This document shows positions 45,894 to 57,039 of a DNA stretch of 64,000 nt, in pieces. The notes under the pieces were generated by a model. It was given only the letters and a program-made list of their open reading frames with translations, searched no databases and was not told the origin of the DNA. Position numbers and translations under genes: made by a program. Numbering within the stretch: the first letter of the stretch is position 1; each line of letters opens with the position of its first letter. Origin of the DNA: Chloroflexota bacterium (GTDB lineage: Bacteria > Chloroflexota > Anaerolineae > Aggregatilineales > Phototrophicaceae); the NCBI GenBank assembly GCA_016223085.1, contig JACRPS010000003.1, positions 1,360,274 to 1,424,273 on the forward strand, in the 5' to 3' direction.

Positions 45894-48134
45894 TTACGGC
45901 AGGGCCAGGCGCAGGTTAAAGCGCAGCGTGCTGGCAGCGGAAACCGGCGTTGTGCCATAACGGGCGATCATGATGTAGTATTTGACGCCCAGCCTGGGCA
46001 CAAAGCTGATTTCGGAATACGTTTTACCGGCGGCATCGTGGCTGCAAAACACCGGCGTCAGGTTGTCAGGGTCGCCGGTGTAAATGCCCATCACCGTGTC
46101 ATAGCTGCTGCCGCTGGTGCTGGCGACCACCCGGCTGCCAAGTGGCAGGAAACCGCCCGTGTGCTGATACCAGACCGTGTTGGCATAGTCCCTGCCGCCG
46201 CCCCCCAGGCAGGTCATCGCCGGGTCGGCAGTAGTGATGGTCGTGCCATAAACATCCTGCGTCCGGGTGTACGAGGGGGACAGGTTGCCAAAATAGGCCG
46301 ATATCGCGCCGTAGATCGAATCATTGGGGACATCCACGCGGATATTAAGCAGCATCGTGACCGGCGCGGCCACCCGTTGTCCGACTTTGGCAACCCGGAT
46401 GTAGTAAGTCGTGTCCTTTAACCCATCAAACCGAACGCTGGAGCGTGCATCTGTTGGGATGATATTGTCGTTGCAGCCGATAGCATTGAGATTACCCGGT
46501 GAGCCGCTGAACACATCCAGCACCGTGTCGTAATTGCTGCCCAGCGTATCTACCACATACGACCGGCTTTCGGTCGGGACGAACCGGTACCAGACCGTGT
46601 TCGCTAAACCCGCGCTTTCAGGAATCAGATTCGGGGAGGGGTCATGAACACACGCCGAACCTTCGCCCTCGCTGACCGTTGACCCGTACACGTCCTGGCT
46701 GCGGCTGTCGGGCATGGCGCTGATGACTGCCGCCTGACCGACCAGATCGTTTGGCACAGCCACGTGCATCAGAATTTTCAGATTGGTGCTGTCGGTGACC
46801 GGTATGCTTCCATATTTGGCAAATACCAGATAATACGCAGTTCCAACCGAGGCCGGGAAGCTCACCTGGGACTGCGTGCCGGCGGTATCATCGTTACACG
46901 CCACCTCGGTCCAGCCGCTGCCCGCACTGGTATACACCCCCAGCACCGTATCGTAGCCGGTGCCAAACGTGTCAACCACCATCGGGCGGCTGGCAACTGG
47001 CACAAAGCGGTACCAGACCGTATTGGCGAAATTCCTGGGGCCGCCGGTCGCGCAGGACATGGAAGGATCGGACGCGCTGACGGTCGAGCCGAAGATTTCC
47101 TGGGTGATGGCTTCGGGCATCCGCATGATGTCCGGGATGATTCGCTCGTCATAGTCCGCCAGATCGTTTGGTACATCCATCCGCAGCGTAAATTTGAGCT
47201 GCTTTGGCACGGAAACCGGCGTGCTACCGTATTTTGCCACCATGAAGTAATAATCGGTATCCGGTTCAGTGGTAAACGCGATATGCGATTGCAGGCCAGC
47301 CGTATCGTCATTGCAGCTCACCAGTTGTAAAGCACCGGCTGCATCAGGGGCATAAATCGCCAGCACCGTGTCGTAGCCGCTGCCAAACGTTTCCGCCGCT
47401 ACTTCATAGATCGTGCCGAACGTCCGGTACTTGTACCAGACCGTATTGGCATAGTTTTTTGACCCTGATTGGATACATGGCATGGGCGGGTCGGTGGTTT
47501 CAACCCGAGCGCCAGAGATATCCTGCAATTTGATGGCTGGGACATCAGGGCCGAAAATTACGGGAGGCGCATAACTGGCGGACGCCACTTCAGCAAACCG
47601 ATCATTGTCCAGCCGCAGGTTCAACAGCAGGAAGGTCGGGCTTCCGGCAGGCTGCTCCGAGTTGTGGACGACCATAATCGAGTACGTGGTGCCCGCCACA
47701 ACCGGGAACTGCGCGATGGCCGGAGTCTGCGGCCAGCCTCTTGCCCAGGCCACCTGATGCAGATTACCCGGGCTGCCGGTATAAACCGCCAGCAGGATGC
47801 CCCGGGTCGTGCCGGTTGTATCAAGGGTGAGGGAGGCATTCACCGGAGCGGTATAGCGGAACCAGACGGAGTTGGTATAGGACTGATATGTCCTGATGGT
47901 ACCATCCGCATTGATCGCCGGATCGCTGACCGAAACCGACGCATAAGCCATGTCCACAACGCTGACATGAGGCAGGTAGCCAACCACACCTGCCGTTGTA
48001 AACGTGTCATAAACGGGGAGCGCACGGGCTATGCTGCTGCCGGGTACTGCCTGCGCCGGTGAAACGAGGCAGACCGTTACCAGCAGCCCAACAATCAACC
48101 AACGAATGGCTTTCGGACCCTGAAGCCGTTGCAT
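45894..48134 (-). CDS. Secreted protein of five tandem beta domains
   Basis: 746 residues from the ATG at 48134 with AAAGGAG nine bases upstream. Signal peptide residues 1-28 (IRWLIVGLLVTVCLVSPAQA). About five repeats of some 130 residues follow, each with a block like ANTVWYRFVP, then VVDTFGTGYDTVLGVYT, VACNDDTAGTQSQVSF and a GT-YYI-VAKYG strand (for example TAYYLVFAKYGSIPV, TTYYIRVAKVGQ, VKYYIMIARYGTTPV). Each repeat has paired cysteines, one before ANTVW and one in C-N-D-D. The domain resembles PPC-type beta sandwiches. No anchor or sorting signal at the end; probably secreted. Function unknown. Confidence 0.8.
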   Translation of the reverse strand: MQRLQGPKAIRWLIVGLLVTVCLVSPAQAVPGSSIARALPVYDTFTTAGVVGYLPHVSVVDMAYASVSVSDPAINADGTIRTYQSYTNSVWFRYTAPVNASLTLDTTGTTRGILLAVYTGSPGNLHQVAWARGWPQTPAIAQFPVVAGTTYSIMVVHNSEQPAGSPTFLLLNLRLDNDRFAEVASASYAPPVIFGPDVPAIKLQDISGARVETTDPPMPCIQSGSKNYANTVWYKYRTFGTIYEVAAETFGSGYDTVLAIYAPDAAGALQLVSCNDDTAGLQSHIAFTTEPDTDYYFMVAKYGSTPVSVPKQLKFTLRMDVPNDLADYDERIIPDIMRMPEAITQEIFGSTVSASDPSMSCATGGPRNFANTVWYRFVPVASRPMVVDTFGTGYDTVLGVYTSAGSGWTEVACNDDTAGTQSQVSFPASVGTAYYLVFAKYGSIPVTDSTNLKILMHVAVPNDLVGQAAVISAMPDSRSQDVYGSTVSEGEGSACVHDPSPNLIPESAGLANTVWYRFVPTESRSYVVDTLGSNYDTVLDVFSGSPGNLNAIGCNDNIIPTDARSSVRFDGLKDTTYYIRVAKVGQRVAAPVTMLLNIRVDVPNDSIYGAISAYFGNLSPSYTRTQDVYGTTITTADPAMTCLGGGGRDYANTVWYQHTGGFLPLGSRVVASTSGSSYDTVMGIYTGDPDNLTPVFCSHDAAGKTYSEISFVPRLGVKYYIMIARYGTTPVSAASTLRFNLRLALP

Positions 48135-48346
48135 GGTCAATGCTCCTTTGTAACGCCTGGGTTGAAACGAATCGCTCAACCACAGACCCTTACCGGAGGC
48201 GATCAATTGGCGCGATGTGGTTTGTTAAAAACAGTCTACCATAGTTTGTGAAAAATGGCTCAAAGTGATTTGTCATGAGTTTGGAGGACAGACTGTGCCT
48301 ATAAACCATGCCCGGACTGTTGCTGCAACGCGGTTTTTGGTCTACC

Positions 48347-52310: not shown

Positions 52311-53147
52311 TCACGCCGGCTTGCCCGGGTGGCGGAACGACACCATCAGCACCAGCCTGCCCAGCCGCAGTTCGTCGCCGTGCCGCAGCACGCGGATTTC
52401 CTTCGGCAGCACGCGCTGGCCGTTGATAAACGTGCCGTTGGCGCTGCCCAGGTCCACCACCAGCACGGCGTTCTGGTCCGCTTCATAGCGGATTGCCATG
52501 TGCATCCGCGATACGCCCAGATCGGCGGCCTGCCTGGTGTTCAGGTCTACGTCAGGCATAATCGCGCTGCCGCTGGAACTGCGCCCGATAATGATTTCGT
52601 GGTCGGACGTTTGTGGGCGGACTTCAAACACGTCGCTTGAGCCGCGCATCCGCAGCGCCAGCACCGACTCCGGCCCAAAAAATTCGCTGCTGGGCACGCT
52701 GCTGGGGTCGTCAAGCTGCTTGGTGACGTTTGATCCCTTGATTGGCTCCAGCAGTTGCCCGCAGGCGTAACAGAACACCTCGTGGGACTGGTTGGGCCGA
52801 CCGCAGTTCGGGCACGCCACCCAGCTAATTTCCGGGATTGAGTCGGTCGGGGCGGTTGGCGCTGCTGGGGACTCGACCGGCGGCAGTTCAACGGTGCGCA
52901 CCAGCGGCTTAATCACCGGGTGCTTGCGCGGCTGGCTGTCCGTTTTGATTTCCGTTGGTGCAGCCGGGGGAGGTGTCGGTCGCGCCGCGCGCGTCTCCCA
53001 GGCGCGCACCAGGCGGGCCAGTTCTTCCCGCTGGGGTTTATCCAGATTTTCGATATGCTGCCGCAGCGCCTGAAGCACCGCTTTGGTCTCCAGACCGTTT
53101 TCGCGCATTCGCGTATATTCGCTTAGAATATCCTGTACGTAACTCAA
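52311..53147 (-). CDS. FHA-domain protein with zinc ribbon
   Basis: 278 residues from a TTG at 53147 with GGAGGGAGGG upstream. Residues 1-60 are helical (YVQDILSEYTRMRENGLETK). A zinc ribbon CPNCGRPNQ ... VFCYACGQLLEP (about 112-135) precedes an FHA domain (about 170-270): EIIIGRSSSGSAIMPDVDLN, GVSRMHMAIRYEADQNAVLV followed by VDLGSANGTFINGQRV, with the phosphothreonine-binding arginine, serine and NGT loop. It probably reads phosphorylated partners of a serine/threonine kinase, none of which is in the window. Confidence 0.88.
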   Translation of the reverse strand: MSYVQDILSEYTRMRENGLETKAVLQALRQHIENLDKPQREELARLVRAWETRAARPTPPPAAPTEIKTDSQPRKHPVIKPLVRTVELPPVESPAAPTAPTDSIPEISWVACPNCGRPNQSHEVFCYACGQLLEPIKGSNVTKQLDDPSSVPSSEFFGPESVLALRMRGSSDVFEVRPQTSDHEIIIGRSSSGSAIMPDVDLNTRQAADLGVSRMHMAIRYEADQNAVLVVDLGSANGTFINGQRVLPKEIRVLRHGDELRLGRLVLMVSFRHPGKPA

Positions 53148-53225
53148 CCGAACCCTCCCTCCTGACTGCGGGCTGGATTGATGGGTTTGCGTTTAAGTAT
53201 ATAACAGAACCGTAAGGAGCGCGTC

Positions 53226-53525
53226 ATGCAATATCCCCTGTTAGATGTCACGATTGAATACTGCGCGGTTTGAAATTACACGCCGCGTGTCGTCAGTTTG
53301 ACGAACGAAATATTGAGCGAACGCGAAATCGAAGCCTTCATTGGCTCCTGGAAACTGATACCCGCCACCGGCGGCAGGTTTGAAGTGACCGTAAACGGCG
53401 AACTGGTTTTTTCCAAGAAGGCGCTGGGACGGCACGCCAATCCCGGCGAAATCCACGATCTGCTGGTGACGAAGCTGAACGCCGTGCGTCCGCCGGGCCT
53501 GATTGTGACCAACGACGACGAGTAG
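53226..53525 (+). CDS. selW: SelW-like (Rdx family) selenoprotein with in-frame UGA
   Basis: 99 residues if the TGA at 53271-53273 is read as selenocysteine. AAGGAG (53214-53219) lies six bases before the ATG. The protein begins MQYPLLDVTIEYCAV, then Sec16, then NYTPRVVSLTNEILSEREIE; the C-x-x-U redox motif (C13, U16) at the end of the first beta strand is the active site of the Rdx/SelW thioredoxin-like fold. The remainder, GSWKLIPATGGRFEVTVNGE followed by LVFSKKALGRHANPGEIHDL, has the family GG-x-FEV and sk-x-x-GrhP-like blocks. Length matches the family. A hairpin 16 bases after the UGA fits the bacterial SECIS model. It likely acts as a small thiol or selenol oxidoreductase. Stop lies 9 bases before the solute-binding gene. 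The alternative, a truncated Cys-less fragment starting later, would lack the active site. Confidence 0.88.
53290..53304 (+). promoter_or_regulatory. Candidate bacterial SECIS hairpin
   Basis: TCGTCA, GTT, TGACGA: six-base perfect stem with a three-base apical loop that starts with G, 22 bases from the UGA to the loop. The published bacterial SECIS model asks for a small apical loop with G in its first two positions at about this distance. A smaller stem ACACG/CGTGT (53278-53290) could form just before it. Confidence 0.65.
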
Positions 53526-53534
53526 AGGAGCGTT

Positions 53535-54614
53535 ATGCCTAAAGCGATTCTGGCGCTGTGTCTGCTGCTGACCGTTTCGACCGCGCTGGCACAGCCGGAA
53601 ACCGAGGGGGTGAAGCCTGGTCCTACGCTGAATTCCATCCTGGCGCGCGGGGTCGTGGCCTGCGGCGTCAATCAGGAAGTCCTCGGCTTTGGTTATCTCG
53701 ATCCCAATACGGGTGAGCTGCGCGGCCTGGAAGTTGACCTGTGCCGGGCGCTGGCCGCTGCCATTTTTGGCGATGCCACCGCTGCCCAACTGGTGCCCTA
53801 TGTGGACGACAGCGGGCTGGACGCGCTGGAACAGGGGGAACTGGATGTGCTGCTGCACACGGTGGTCTGGGCATTGAGCGCCGACGCTAACCCGCGCCTG
53901 GACTTTGGCCCGGCCATGTTTTACGGCGGCCAGTCGTTTCTGGTACAGGCCAGCAGCGGCCTGGCCGACTGGCCAGACCTGGACGGCGCAGTGATCTGCG
54001 TTGCGGCAGATTCGGTTGCCGCCGCCAGCCTGCCCGCTGCCATGACCAGCCGGGGACTCAACTTCCAGCCGCTGGAACTGCCGTCCGCCGATGAGGCGGT
54101 CACGGCGCTGATCGAGGGGCAATGTCAGGCGTACACCGCCAATCTGGTGGAGCTGGAAACCGCCCGCCAGCGGGCTGCCGACCCCGGCGCGTATGTCGTG
54201 TGGCAGGGGCGCGACCACATTTACACGCAGGAGCCGTTCGCGCCGGTATACCGCAGCGACGACCCGCAGTGGCGCGACCTGGTGAACTGGACGCTGCTTG
54301 GCCTCATCGCGGCGGAAGAACTGGGCGTCAGCAGCGAAAATGTGCTGACGCTGTCGCAACAGCCGGGTGAACAGGGCGACGACTATATCACGCGCGTTGG
54401 CCCAAACCTGGCGCGTTTTCTGGGGGAAACTACCGGTCTGGGCAGCCAACTGGCGCTGCCAAACGACTTTATGGCAGCCGCGGTGCGGGAAGTGGGCAAC
54501 TATGGCGAAATCTTCAACCGCTACCTGGGCCTCGCCGGCGATCTGGTGATCGAACGCGATTTAAACGCCCTGTGGCGGGACGGTGGTCTGCTGGTCGCGC
54601 CGGTGTGGCGATAA
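53535..54614 (+). CDS. Amino-acid ABC transporter solute-binding protein (SBP_bac_3, AapJ-like)
   Basis: 359 residues, GAGGAG upstream, nine bases after the selenoprotein stop. Signal peptide residues 1-19 (AILALCLLLTVSTALA). The periplasmic-binding fold shows ILARGVVACGVNQEVLGFGY, GLEVDLCRALAAAIFGD, LDALEQGELDVLLHTVVW and IYTQEPFAPVYRSDDPQWRD, followed by the C-terminal VGNYGEIFNRYLG typical of the AapJ/general L-amino-acid group. No permease or ATPase gene is near, so the transporter is elsewhere or the protein senses a ligand. Confidence 0.88.
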   Translation: MPKAILALCLLLTVSTALAQPETEGVKPGPTLNSILARGVVACGVNQEVLGFGYLDPNTGELRGLEVDLCRALAAAIFGDATAAQLVPYVDDSGLDALEQGELDVLLHTVVWALSADANPRLDFGPAMFYGGQSFLVQASSGLADWPDLDGAVICVAADSVAAASLPAAMTSRGLNFQPLELPSADEAVTALIEGQCQAYTANLVELETARQRAADPGAYVVWQGRDHIYTQEPFAPVYRSDDPQWRDLVNWTLLGLIAAEELGVSSENVLTLSQQPGEQGDDYITRVGPNLARFLGETTGLGSQLALPNDFMAAAVREVGNYGEIFNRYLGLAGDLVIERDLNALWRDGGLLVAPVWR

Positions 54615-54660
54615 ATTACCATCTCGCCCCAACTGCCTAAATCGTCAATAATGCTTTTTC

Positions 54661-54689
54661 GTAGGGACATGGCGGCGCCATGTCCCTAC
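54661..54689. repeat. Palindrome, CATGGC type
   Basis: GTAGGGACATGGC, GGC, GCCATGTCCCTAC. Same type as the copy at 17333. Confidence 0.85.
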
Positions 54690-54720
54690 CGCCGGTATTT
54701 TTTGTCCCTGAAAACGAAGT

Positions 54721-54747
54721 CCCCCTCTCCATGTAATGGAGAGGGGG
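54721..54747. repeat. C/G-rich inverted repeat
   Basis: CCCCCTCTCCAT, GTA, ATGGAGAGGGGG: perfect 12-base arms, followed by ACAGGGGG. Belongs with the CCCCTCCC-type repeats at 26721 and 59301. Shortly after the convergent PPC-protein stop. Confidence 0.75.
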
Positions 54748-54764
54748 ACAGGGGGTAGAATATG

Positions 54765-56915
54765 CTATTCCCCCAGTCGTTCCAGTGTCAGCTCCAGTGT
54801 CACCCGCGCGAAGTTGGCGTCGCTCACCTGCACGTTGACCGCGCCATCTGCCGGCACCACAAACTCCAGCGTCAGCGCGGCAACAGCGGACGCATTGGCC
54901 GTCGTCAGCGTTTGCCCCCCCTGCGTAATCGTGACCGTCGGCGCGGCGCTGGTGCTGTCCAGCAGACGGACGGCCAGCCACACCCGTTCGCCCGCCACAC
55001 CCATGAAGGTCAGCACGTCCTGCGGCTGCTTCTCGTTAAGCTGCACCTGCTGCTTGCCCGCGTCCAACGATGCTAGCACTTCCCGCGCCAGCGTCAGGCT
55101 GATACGCCCGGTCCGGGTAGGGTCATACGGTTTGATGAGCAGCAGATAGGTGCCATCCTGTGCCAGCACCTGCCGGTTTAATTCGGGGTCGCTGCCCTCG
55201 CCGCTGTCGTCGTCAAACGCCACTTCGTAACCATCCGGGCCGCGCAGCGACAGCGACGTGTCGAGCGTACCGCCGCTGTCCACGCGGATGTGCACCACGT
55301 CACCCGCAACCGCCTGAAATTGATAATACAGCGCCGGTGTCTGCGGTGTAAATTCGCCCACCAGCGTGTCGCCGTAAGCGATTGGCGTCAGCGTGGCCTT
55401 CAGCAGCGACAGCCGGAAGGCGCCGCTGCGGCTGTCCACGCTGCGCAGGGACAGGTAATAATCACCGGTGGTGGGCAGCGTATACGGGCCGATCAGCGGA
55501 TTAAGATTGCCGCCGCTGTCATCATCTTCCGCCAGCGCGCCGGCGTTGGGCCGCGACAGCGTGAGATAAGCGTCAAAGTCGCTGGCCTCGGCGCTGATCG
55601 CCACCACATCGCCCGCCTGCCCGGTGAAGCGGTACACCGGCGCGGGCATATGGGCGGCCAGCGTCCCCTGCACCGTCTGGGTGTATTCGATTGGAACGGG
55701 TGTCACTTCCTGTACGCTGAGCGTAAACGCGCCACCTGCGCCGCTGAAGCTTTCCACCGACACGGTATACGTGCCCGTCTGGGGCAGTGTGTACAGCGCA
55801 ATTTGCGCGTTCAGGCTGCCGCCGCTGTCATCGTCAGTGGCCAGTTCCGCGCCGGCTGCGCTCAACAGCCGCAGGTAGGAGTCAAACGCCTCCGACACCA
55901 GCCGGATTGTTACCAACTGCCCGGCGCGGCCTTCGAGCGTGTAGGTCACGGGCGCGCCGCCGGTCAGTTCGCCGCTGATGGTCTGCCCAATCGCAAGCGC
56001 GTTCCCGGCCTGCGCCGCCGGTTCTTCGGTGGCTGCCTCGGTCGGCGGCGGGAAGGGTGTGGGCGTGGCCGTCAGGGCGGACTCGGTAGGCACCGGAGTC
56101 TGCCGCACGCTGGCGAAGTCCAGCGACAGGGTATAAGCGCCGGTTTCGGCGTTGGTGTAGCTGCCCGCGCTGATCGTATACGTGCCATCGGCGGGCAGAC
56201 TGAAGGCACTGATGCGGGCATCGTAGCTGCCCGCGCCATCGTCGTCAGAGGCCAGCGTATCACCACTGGCATCCTTCAGCAGCAGATAAGCGTCAAAGTC
56301 GGTCGAGGCCAGCGTGATCGTCACCGTCTGCCCGGCGCTGCCTTCAAACACATAGTCAACGGCGGGCGACTCTTTCGTCAGCGTGCCGGTCACGCTGTCG
56401 CCAATTGCCAGCGTACCGCTGGCCGGTGCGGCGGTTGGCTCGGCAGCAACGTCTGTTGGTGAGGCGACCATCGTTGGCAGGGCAGCAGCGGTGGGAGCGC
56501 CCGCGCTATTCTCCACTTTTTCCAGCGTCAGGGTAAATTCGCCGGTGCTGGCACGGTTGTAGCTGCTGACGGTGATGCTGTATTCGCCAGCAGCGGGCAG
56601 CGCCTGTGCCTCAATCCGCGCGTTGAGGTTGCCGGCGCGGTCGTCGTCAGTCGCCAGTTCTGCGCCACCGGCATCCCGCAGCGTGAGGAAGGTATCAAAG
56701 TTATCCGATGTGGCCGTGATCGTCACCACATCACCCGCGCTGCCGGTGAAGTAATAGGTGGCGGTGGGCGTGGTTTCGGTCAGCGTGCCGTCCACCGACT
56801 GCCCATAGACAATCGCAGCGGCAGCGTTGGCAGTCGCCTCCGGGGTGCTTTCCTGCGCCAGCGCCAGCAGCGGGAACAGCAGCAGCATTACCAGAATCAC
56901 GAGCTTGCGTGCCAT
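54765..56915 (-). CDS. Secreted PPC-domain repeat protein
   Basis: 716 residues from the ATG at 56915 with AAAGGAT upstream. Signal peptide residues 1-20 (KLVILVMLLLFPLLALA). Five or six domains of the bacterial pre-peptidase C-terminal (PPC) type follow, each with G-DVVTI-like and LxxDDDxG blocks: AGDVVTITATSDNFDTFLTL, ELATDDDRAGNLNARIEAQA, DTLASDDDGAGSYDARISAF, ELATDDDSGGSLNAQIALYT, ALAEDDDSGGNLNPLIGPYT. The acidic DDD turns probably bind calcium. Thr/Pro linkers join the first domains. It has no catalytic domain and may be a secreted adhesive or binding protein. Confidence 0.85.
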   Translation of the reverse strand: MARKLVILVMLLLFPLLALAQESTPEATANAAAAIVYGQSVDGTLTETTPTATYYFTGSAGDVVTITATSDNFDTFLTLRDAGGAELATDDDRAGNLNARIEAQALPAAGEYSITVSSYNRASTGEFTLTLEKVENSAGAPTAAALPTMVASPTDVAAEPTAAPASGTLAIGDSVTGTLTKESPAVDYVFEGSAGQTVTITLASTDFDAYLLLKDASGDTLASDDDGAGSYDARISAFSLPADGTYTISAGSYTNAETGAYTLSLDFASVRQTPVPTESALTATPTPFPPPTEAATEEPAAQAGNALAIGQTISGELTGGAPVTYTLEGRAGQLVTIRLVSEAFDSYLRLLSAAGAELATDDDSGGSLNAQIALYTLPQTGTYTVSVESFSGAGGAFTLSVQEVTPVPIEYTQTVQGTLAAHMPAPVYRFTGQAGDVVAISAEASDFDAYLTLSRPNAGALAEDDDSGGNLNPLIGPYTLPTTGDYYLSLRSVDSRSGAFRLSLLKATLTPIAYGDTLVGEFTPQTPALYYQFQAVAGDVVHIRVDSGGTLDTSLSLRGPDGYEVAFDDDSGEGSDPELNRQVLAQDGTYLLLIKPYDPTRTGRISLTLAREVLASLDAGKQQVQLNEKQPQDVLTFMGVAGERVWLAVRLLDSTSAAPTVTITQGGQTLTTANASAVAALTLEFVVPADGAVNVQVSDANFARVTLELTLERLGE

Positions 56916-57039
56916 AAGTGCTATCCTTTGTTGCGGCGAGCAGCGAGATCGAACGGCTCGCCCCGGTTTCATTGTAGTGCAAAAGCCACTTTTGGGCATG
57001 GCGCGCGCCGGGTAAACGTGTTAAAAAAGAGCATACGCC

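Follow-up and report, generated by a model that had tools for sequence, protein, structure and literature searches.

The 64,000-nucleotide stretch of Chloroflexota DNA analysed here (the window) carries a short gene with an in-frame stop codon, flanked by a divergent gene on one side and by a closely spaced gene of the same orientation on the other. The features at this locus are:

52311..53147, minus strand: divergent gene for an FHA-domain/zinc-ribbon protein, assigned from a profile match and its conserved place
53214..53219, plus strand: Shine-Dalgarno sequence AAGGAG of the SelW gene, read from the sequence; in many relatives a purine-rich site has roughly this position
53226..53525, plus strand: predicted SelW/Rdx selenoprotein gene, 99 residues, with a CxxU motif (C13, U16)
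53271..53273, plus strand: in-frame TGA at residue 16, predicted from the sequence and its conservation among relatives to be read as selenocysteine
53290..53304, plus strand: putative bacterial SECIS hairpin, stem 53290-53295/53299-53304 (6 bp), loop GUU at 53296-53298
53535..54614, plus strand: gene for a family-3 solute-binding protein (SBP_bac_3, 34.8 bits)

The ATG at 53226 lies six bases past the AAGGAG (53214-53219), and the frame reads MQYPLLDVTIEYCAV-TGA-NYTPRVV...GGRFEVTVNGEL... up to the TAG at 53523-53525. It holds a single TGA, which occupies the second cysteine of a CxxC; with this codon counted as a residue (MQYPLLDVTIEYCAVUNYTPRVV...GGRFEVTVNGEL...) the product has 99 amino acids, and the position of the TGA at 53271-53273 thus makes the motif C13-x-x-U16. 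The preliminary description had read the gene in this way, from its AAGGAG to the TGA in the second place of the C-x-x-C, and both coordinates and translation agree with it. It had also expected a standard gene caller to keep just the part without active site from about 53298, and translation table 11 leaves exactly such a remnant, a 75-aa open reading frame with a TTG start (53298-53525) in which the active site is missing.

Profile searches with the complete protein scored 63 bits against Pfam Rdx (PF10262; cut-off 22.6) and 51.5 bits against NCBIfam CXXU_selWTH (TIGR02174; cut-off 34.2), and 78.8 against the Campylobacter-type equivalog NF041051, under its cut-off of 88. Among solved SelW-related proteins, sequence matches were obtained with 2fa8 (E 1.3e-9) and mouse SelW 2npb (E 0.00096). 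An AlphaFold2 model built on 34 relatives, with C replacing U, reached a pLDDT of 90.8 and places a strand at residues 6-13 before the CxxU; Foldseek searches of the PDB with this model returned SelW-related proteins as top matches, the best being 2fa8, with mouse SelW 2npb at E 0.0029. A thioredoxin-like SelW fold is therefore predicted with confidence. In the protein alignment, which covers 34 of the 128 loci described below, C13 and position 16 are invariant in all 34 proteins, four of them Cys forms (U appears as C in this alignment), an invariance suggesting that the active site works. The product is most likely a small thiol-disulfide (selenenylsulfide) oxidoreductase; the CxxU motif of SelW-like proteins has been taken to suggest a redox function, their exact role being called unclear in the same source (PMC1088965).

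Conservation of the TGA codon and the downstream hairpin

Relatives were collected from 101 genomes, the source genome plus 100 others. Rdx proteins occur in 45 of them (48 matches), and the codon aligned to residue 16 is TGA in 43 matches, each from a different genome, and TGT or TGC in the other five. Over a larger set of 128 loci, made up of the 48 matches and 80 further loci that include some of the same genes, the counts are 123 TGA and 5 TGT/TGC. SelW homologues are conserved past this position and have there either TGA or a Cys codon, with no other residue, as the preliminary description had anticipated for a genuine selenoprotein. A survey of the phylum found Rdx in 138 of 301 genomes, with TGA and stop-free forms both present among the matches listed.

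The hairpin downstream of the TGA has the sequence UCGUCA-GUU-UGACGA, and its loop begins with G, 22 nt past the UGA. Published criteria for bacterial SECIS elements comprise an apical loop of 3-9 nt, a stem of 4-16 bp, a G in the first two loop positions and a distance of 16-37 nt from the UGA (PMC13188914); the loop of 3 nt, the stem of 6 bp, the leading G and the spacing of 22 nt all fall within them. The same source sets a minimum free energy of -7.5 kcal/mol or below, against which we obtained -8.6 for a 43-nt stretch and -5.9 kcal/mol for the bare 20-nt core, the energy varying with the stretch chosen. On its own, the native sequence folded no more stably than its shuffles (z-scores of -0.38, -0.28 and +0.82); single-sequence folding was therefore dropped as evidence, and the support for the hairpin is comparative. 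RNAs reaching at least 52 nt past the UGA preferred another fold, and in three such RNAs no stem pair exceeded a probability of 0.14; in five shorter ones the four middle stem pairs had probabilities of 0.89-1.0. A scan of the window with Rfam returned a tRNA as its sole match and no SECIS family.

The comparative analysis used the 104 distinct 48-mers present among the 123 TGA loci, 50 from Chloroflexota and 54 from other bacteria. Going by their record titles, almost all of the latter are Bacillota; two are Planctomycetota and one carries the label Pseudomonas. For the 104 sequences RNAalifold returned one 6-bp hairpin with a UGA-to-loop distance of 22 nt, in which 97.9% of the 624 cells are paired and five of the six pairs have changed on both sides; when the partners are shifted by 1-3 columns, pairing falls to 20-47%. 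All six pairs are kept in 96 of the 104 sequences, five in 5, four in 2 and two in a single one, an Anaerolineales SelW gene with TGA (L061:3034-3081, plus strand) whose SECIS may be different or decaying. Because many of these cells reflect one old difference between groups, synonymous codons were permuted within each column among rows having the same amino acid. Under this codon-preserving null, pairing was 92.0 +/- 0.56% against the 97.9% observed in all 104 sequences (0 of 5000 permutations as high), 94.7 +/- 0.29% against 96.0% in Chloroflexota alone (2 of 5000) and 96.0 +/- 0.42% against 99.7% in the non-Chloroflexota set (0 of 5000).

The stem is complete in 40 of the 43 TGA loci and keeps five pairs in the other three; the five Chloroflexota loci with the Cys form keep 4, 4, 3, 2 and 1 of the six. 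Its outer pair is C-G in most Chloroflexota and U-A in five, with non-synonymous differences on both sides (Ala22 versus Val or Ile; Asp or Ala27 versus Asn or Thr); the U-A version occurs in the genus of the source genome and in L039, as compared with its sister L060, apparently in two separate lines. The element proposed in the preliminary description, a hairpin with a G-initiated loop 22 bases past the UGA, thus has the geometry of the bacterial SECIS model and pairs that covary, and a TGA kept in 43 of 48 matches together with such a covarying hairpin is more than chance would give.

These data bear directly on whether the gene is simply broken. A single base separates TGA from a cysteine codon, and TGT or TGC is found in five of the 128 loci, which would fit a pseudogene, or a sequencing or assembly error turning TGC/TGT into TGA; but the same TGA recurs in 43 of the 48 Rdx matches from the 101 genomes, the frame past it is conserved and the downstream hairpin is kept beyond what coding needs. 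With the conserved TGA and the decoding machinery described below going against it, we regard this explanation as extremely improbable and in practice already refuted.

Selenocysteine machinery in the source genome and its relatives

The source genome (6.03 Mb in 37 contigs) is 97.85% complete with 4.44% contamination. The nearest named relative of its SelW is that of an Aggregatilineales metagenome-assembled genome, 81% identical; Aggregatilineales is an order of the class Anaerolineae, phylum Chloroflexota. The selenocysteine pathway that the preliminary description had predicted is present, since selA, selB, selC and selD were all found, each scoring above its curated or gathering cut-off:

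C12:479614-479706: tRNA-Sec, 73 bits, anticodon TCA according to ARAGORN
C12:913233-914555, minus strand: SelA, 554.7 bits
contig C15: SelB, 373 bits
C35:83024-83959 (locus L018), minus strand: SelD, 368 bits, with an in-frame TGA

The tRNA-Sec and SelA genes share contig C12 with the window; their presence is therefore not due to contamination. Two weaker matches to the tRNA-Sec model RF01852 examined in the same genome (L003, at 47.2 bits above the cut-off, and L004) were rejected as tRNA-Ser. The TGA of SelD is located near the N-terminus, in the context ...SLAACAG-U-ASKLGPGDL..., which we take to be the place where other SelD proteins carry Sec or Cys; SelD is probably a selenoprotein as well. 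A formate dehydrogenase with selenocysteine was considered as the main user of the pathway and discarded, Fdh-alpha scoring under the cut-off and its two matches having no in-frame stop. A protein of the AhpC/TSA family (53.6 bits; L149:503-1543, plus strand, from G000 C28:27400-29200, the start codon being our choice) has an in-frame TGA at L149:806 (FTSRT-U-PAANG), followed by a strong hairpin with a GGUC loop 17 nt past the UGA; it also matches T4_deiodinase at 27.3 bits, barely above the cut-off of 27, and is likely to be a further selenoprotein of this genome. Beside selA, on the same strand, there is a peroxiredoxin-family gene (146.9 bits; region G000 C12:912727-914555, minus strand).

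An open frame, taken alone, would fit a TGA read as an ordinary amino acid, either by general reassignment or by readthrough with Trp, but TGA ends 9 of the 41 long frames of the window (picked mechanically by length, some of them maybe spurious), a tRNA-Sec with anticodon TCA is present and the alternative residue of homologues at this site is Cys. That reading is vanishingly improbable, and decoding as selenocysteine is retained.

Across the 101 genomes, 40 of the 43 that carry a TGA-containing SelW gave a SelA match at E <= 0.001, one of them (G049) through a fragment under the cut-off. Of the three without a SelA match, G087 has SelB and a tRNA-Sec (its best RF01852 match, anticodon TCA), and G040, which is 68% complete, has SelB above the cut-off and no tRNA-Sec. 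In G096 (81% complete, with the TGA-containing SelW L142) neither SelB nor tRNA-Sec scored above the cut-off, perhaps because sequence is missing or because the pathway was recently lost. SelA was matched in neither of the two genomes whose sole Rdx protein is a Cys form (G028 and G043), and SelB did not exceed the cut-off in them. The best RF01852 matches of G028 (50.5 bits, above the cut-off), G040 and G096 were rejected as tRNA-Ser. Of the 56 genomes lacking an Rdx match, 26 also have SelA above the cut-off, as expected if other selenoproteins are present, so that the association of SelW with SelA runs one way.

A tree of 60 distinct proteins, from which most Bacillota sequences were left out, sets three Cys forms apart and places that of G028 (L044_Cys) inside the Sec forms with 95/77 support, on a long branch of a poorly resolved tree. 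Since SelA and SelB were not found in G028 and its hairpin region keeps 2 of the 6 pairs, this protein looks like a Sec-to-Cys replacement accompanied by loss of the pathway. Sec-to-Cys conversions are already known (PMC1794560). Sec and Cys homologues in which the presence or absence of SelA, SelB and the hairpin largely matches make a useful natural comparison.

Neighbouring genes and relation to known selenoproteins

Downstream, the gene for the solute-binding protein begins nine bases past the SelW stop, at 53535, with an AGGAG of its own at 53526-53530. A relative of this gene lies downstream on the same strand in at least 26 of the 43 TGA loci, and one of the FHA gene upstream in at least 25 of the 43, both numbers being lower bounds because the flanks span about 1.5 kb and some end at contig edges; neither was seen at the five Cys-form loci, which are mostly distant paralogues. 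The narrow gap and the conserved gene order make a transcript shared by SelW and the solute-binding protein plausible. A consensus scan of 53100-54800 gave no promoter-like site on the plus strand, and PADLOC found no match for the SelW, solute-binding or FHA protein. Elsewhere in the window, two long frames on the minus strand (45894-48206 and 54765-56999) contain repeated similar blocks with acidic stretches (such as NDDTAG and DDDSGG) and probably encode secreted repeat proteins.

This closeness and conserved order also mean that readthrough could be coupled to translation of the solute-binding protein gene, so that the UGA might mainly terminate translation and act as a selenium-sensing switch for that gene, the working product being the leader of 15 residues or the internal 75-aa frame. 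Such a role would hardly account for the invariance of C13 and of the residue-16 position in all 34 aligned proteins, Cys forms among them, and the distance to the solute-binding protein match varies from 10 to 559 bases across loci (counted up to where the BLAST match begins, which need not be the start codon); we consider it very improbable.

We are highly confident that the locus is a functional bacterial selenoprotein gene in which UGA stands for selenocysteine. What sequence analysis establishes is the gene itself, a full set of decoding genes, the conservation of the TGA and the covariation of the hairpin. In the mechanism that we propose, SelB loaded with Sec-tRNA-Sec would bind the hairpin, which starts 16 nt past the UGA and has its apical loop at 22 nt, and the UGA at codon 16 would direct insertion of selenocysteine; pairings of SelB and SECIS can be lineage-specific. 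The expected product, a 99-residue Rdx/SelW protein with a thioredoxin-like fold and a CxxU redox centre, would then act as a thiol-disulfide oxidoreductase.

What is least explained about the locus is the conserved solute-binding protein downstream, which also offers a lead on the function of bacterial SelW. It is tempting to speculate that in this lineage SelW and the extracytoplasmic family-3 solute-binding protein form a conserved unit, in which SelW services, senses or repairs the uptake of sulfur or selenium amino acids and the SECIS dictates amino acids of the protein; we hold this proposal to be rather unlikely, although if true it would provide a concrete pathway for bacterial SelW. 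The reading of the TGA has more immediate consequences. Under the standard code, an annotation would miss the SelW active site or treat the gene as broken. Read correctly, the locus reveals a redox protein that depends on selenium, and a genome able to decode Sec, in a group of Chloroflexota represented here mostly by metagenome assemblies.

SelW-like selenoproteins form an established family in bacteria (PMC13188914, PMC1088965, PMC2398784, PMC1794560): SelW-like, or SELENOW-like, proteins are listed among the prokaryotic selenoprotein families (PMC13188914) and, in the surveys of the Sargasso Sea and of GOS, ranked as the most abundant selenoprotein family (PMC1088965, PMC2398784). Three selenoproteins of three families have been counted in Chloroflexi (PMC1794560); no title in the literature on Chloroflexota selenoproteins that we retrieved concerned this gene, from which we do not claim its absence from print.

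The gene has in common with bacterial SelW-like selenoproteins (PF10262) the fold, the CxxU with Sec in second place and a bacterial-type SECIS just past the UGA; what distinguishes it is its host, a Chloroflexota bacterium near Aggregatilineales, and its solute-binding protein and FHA neighbours, as compared within Chloroflexota. SelW genes of Bacillota (L066-L069 and L071-L074) have the TGA at the same codon and the hairpin in the same place; at these eight loci the protein shares 35-47% identity with the query. The two inner pairs of the stem are mostly C-G and G-C in the non-Chloroflexota set, whereas here they are U-A and C-G. Finally, the solved Cys-form Rdx proteins 2fa8, 2obk and 3dex share the fold predicted for our protein, and the residue that is Cys in them aligns with the predicted Sec here.
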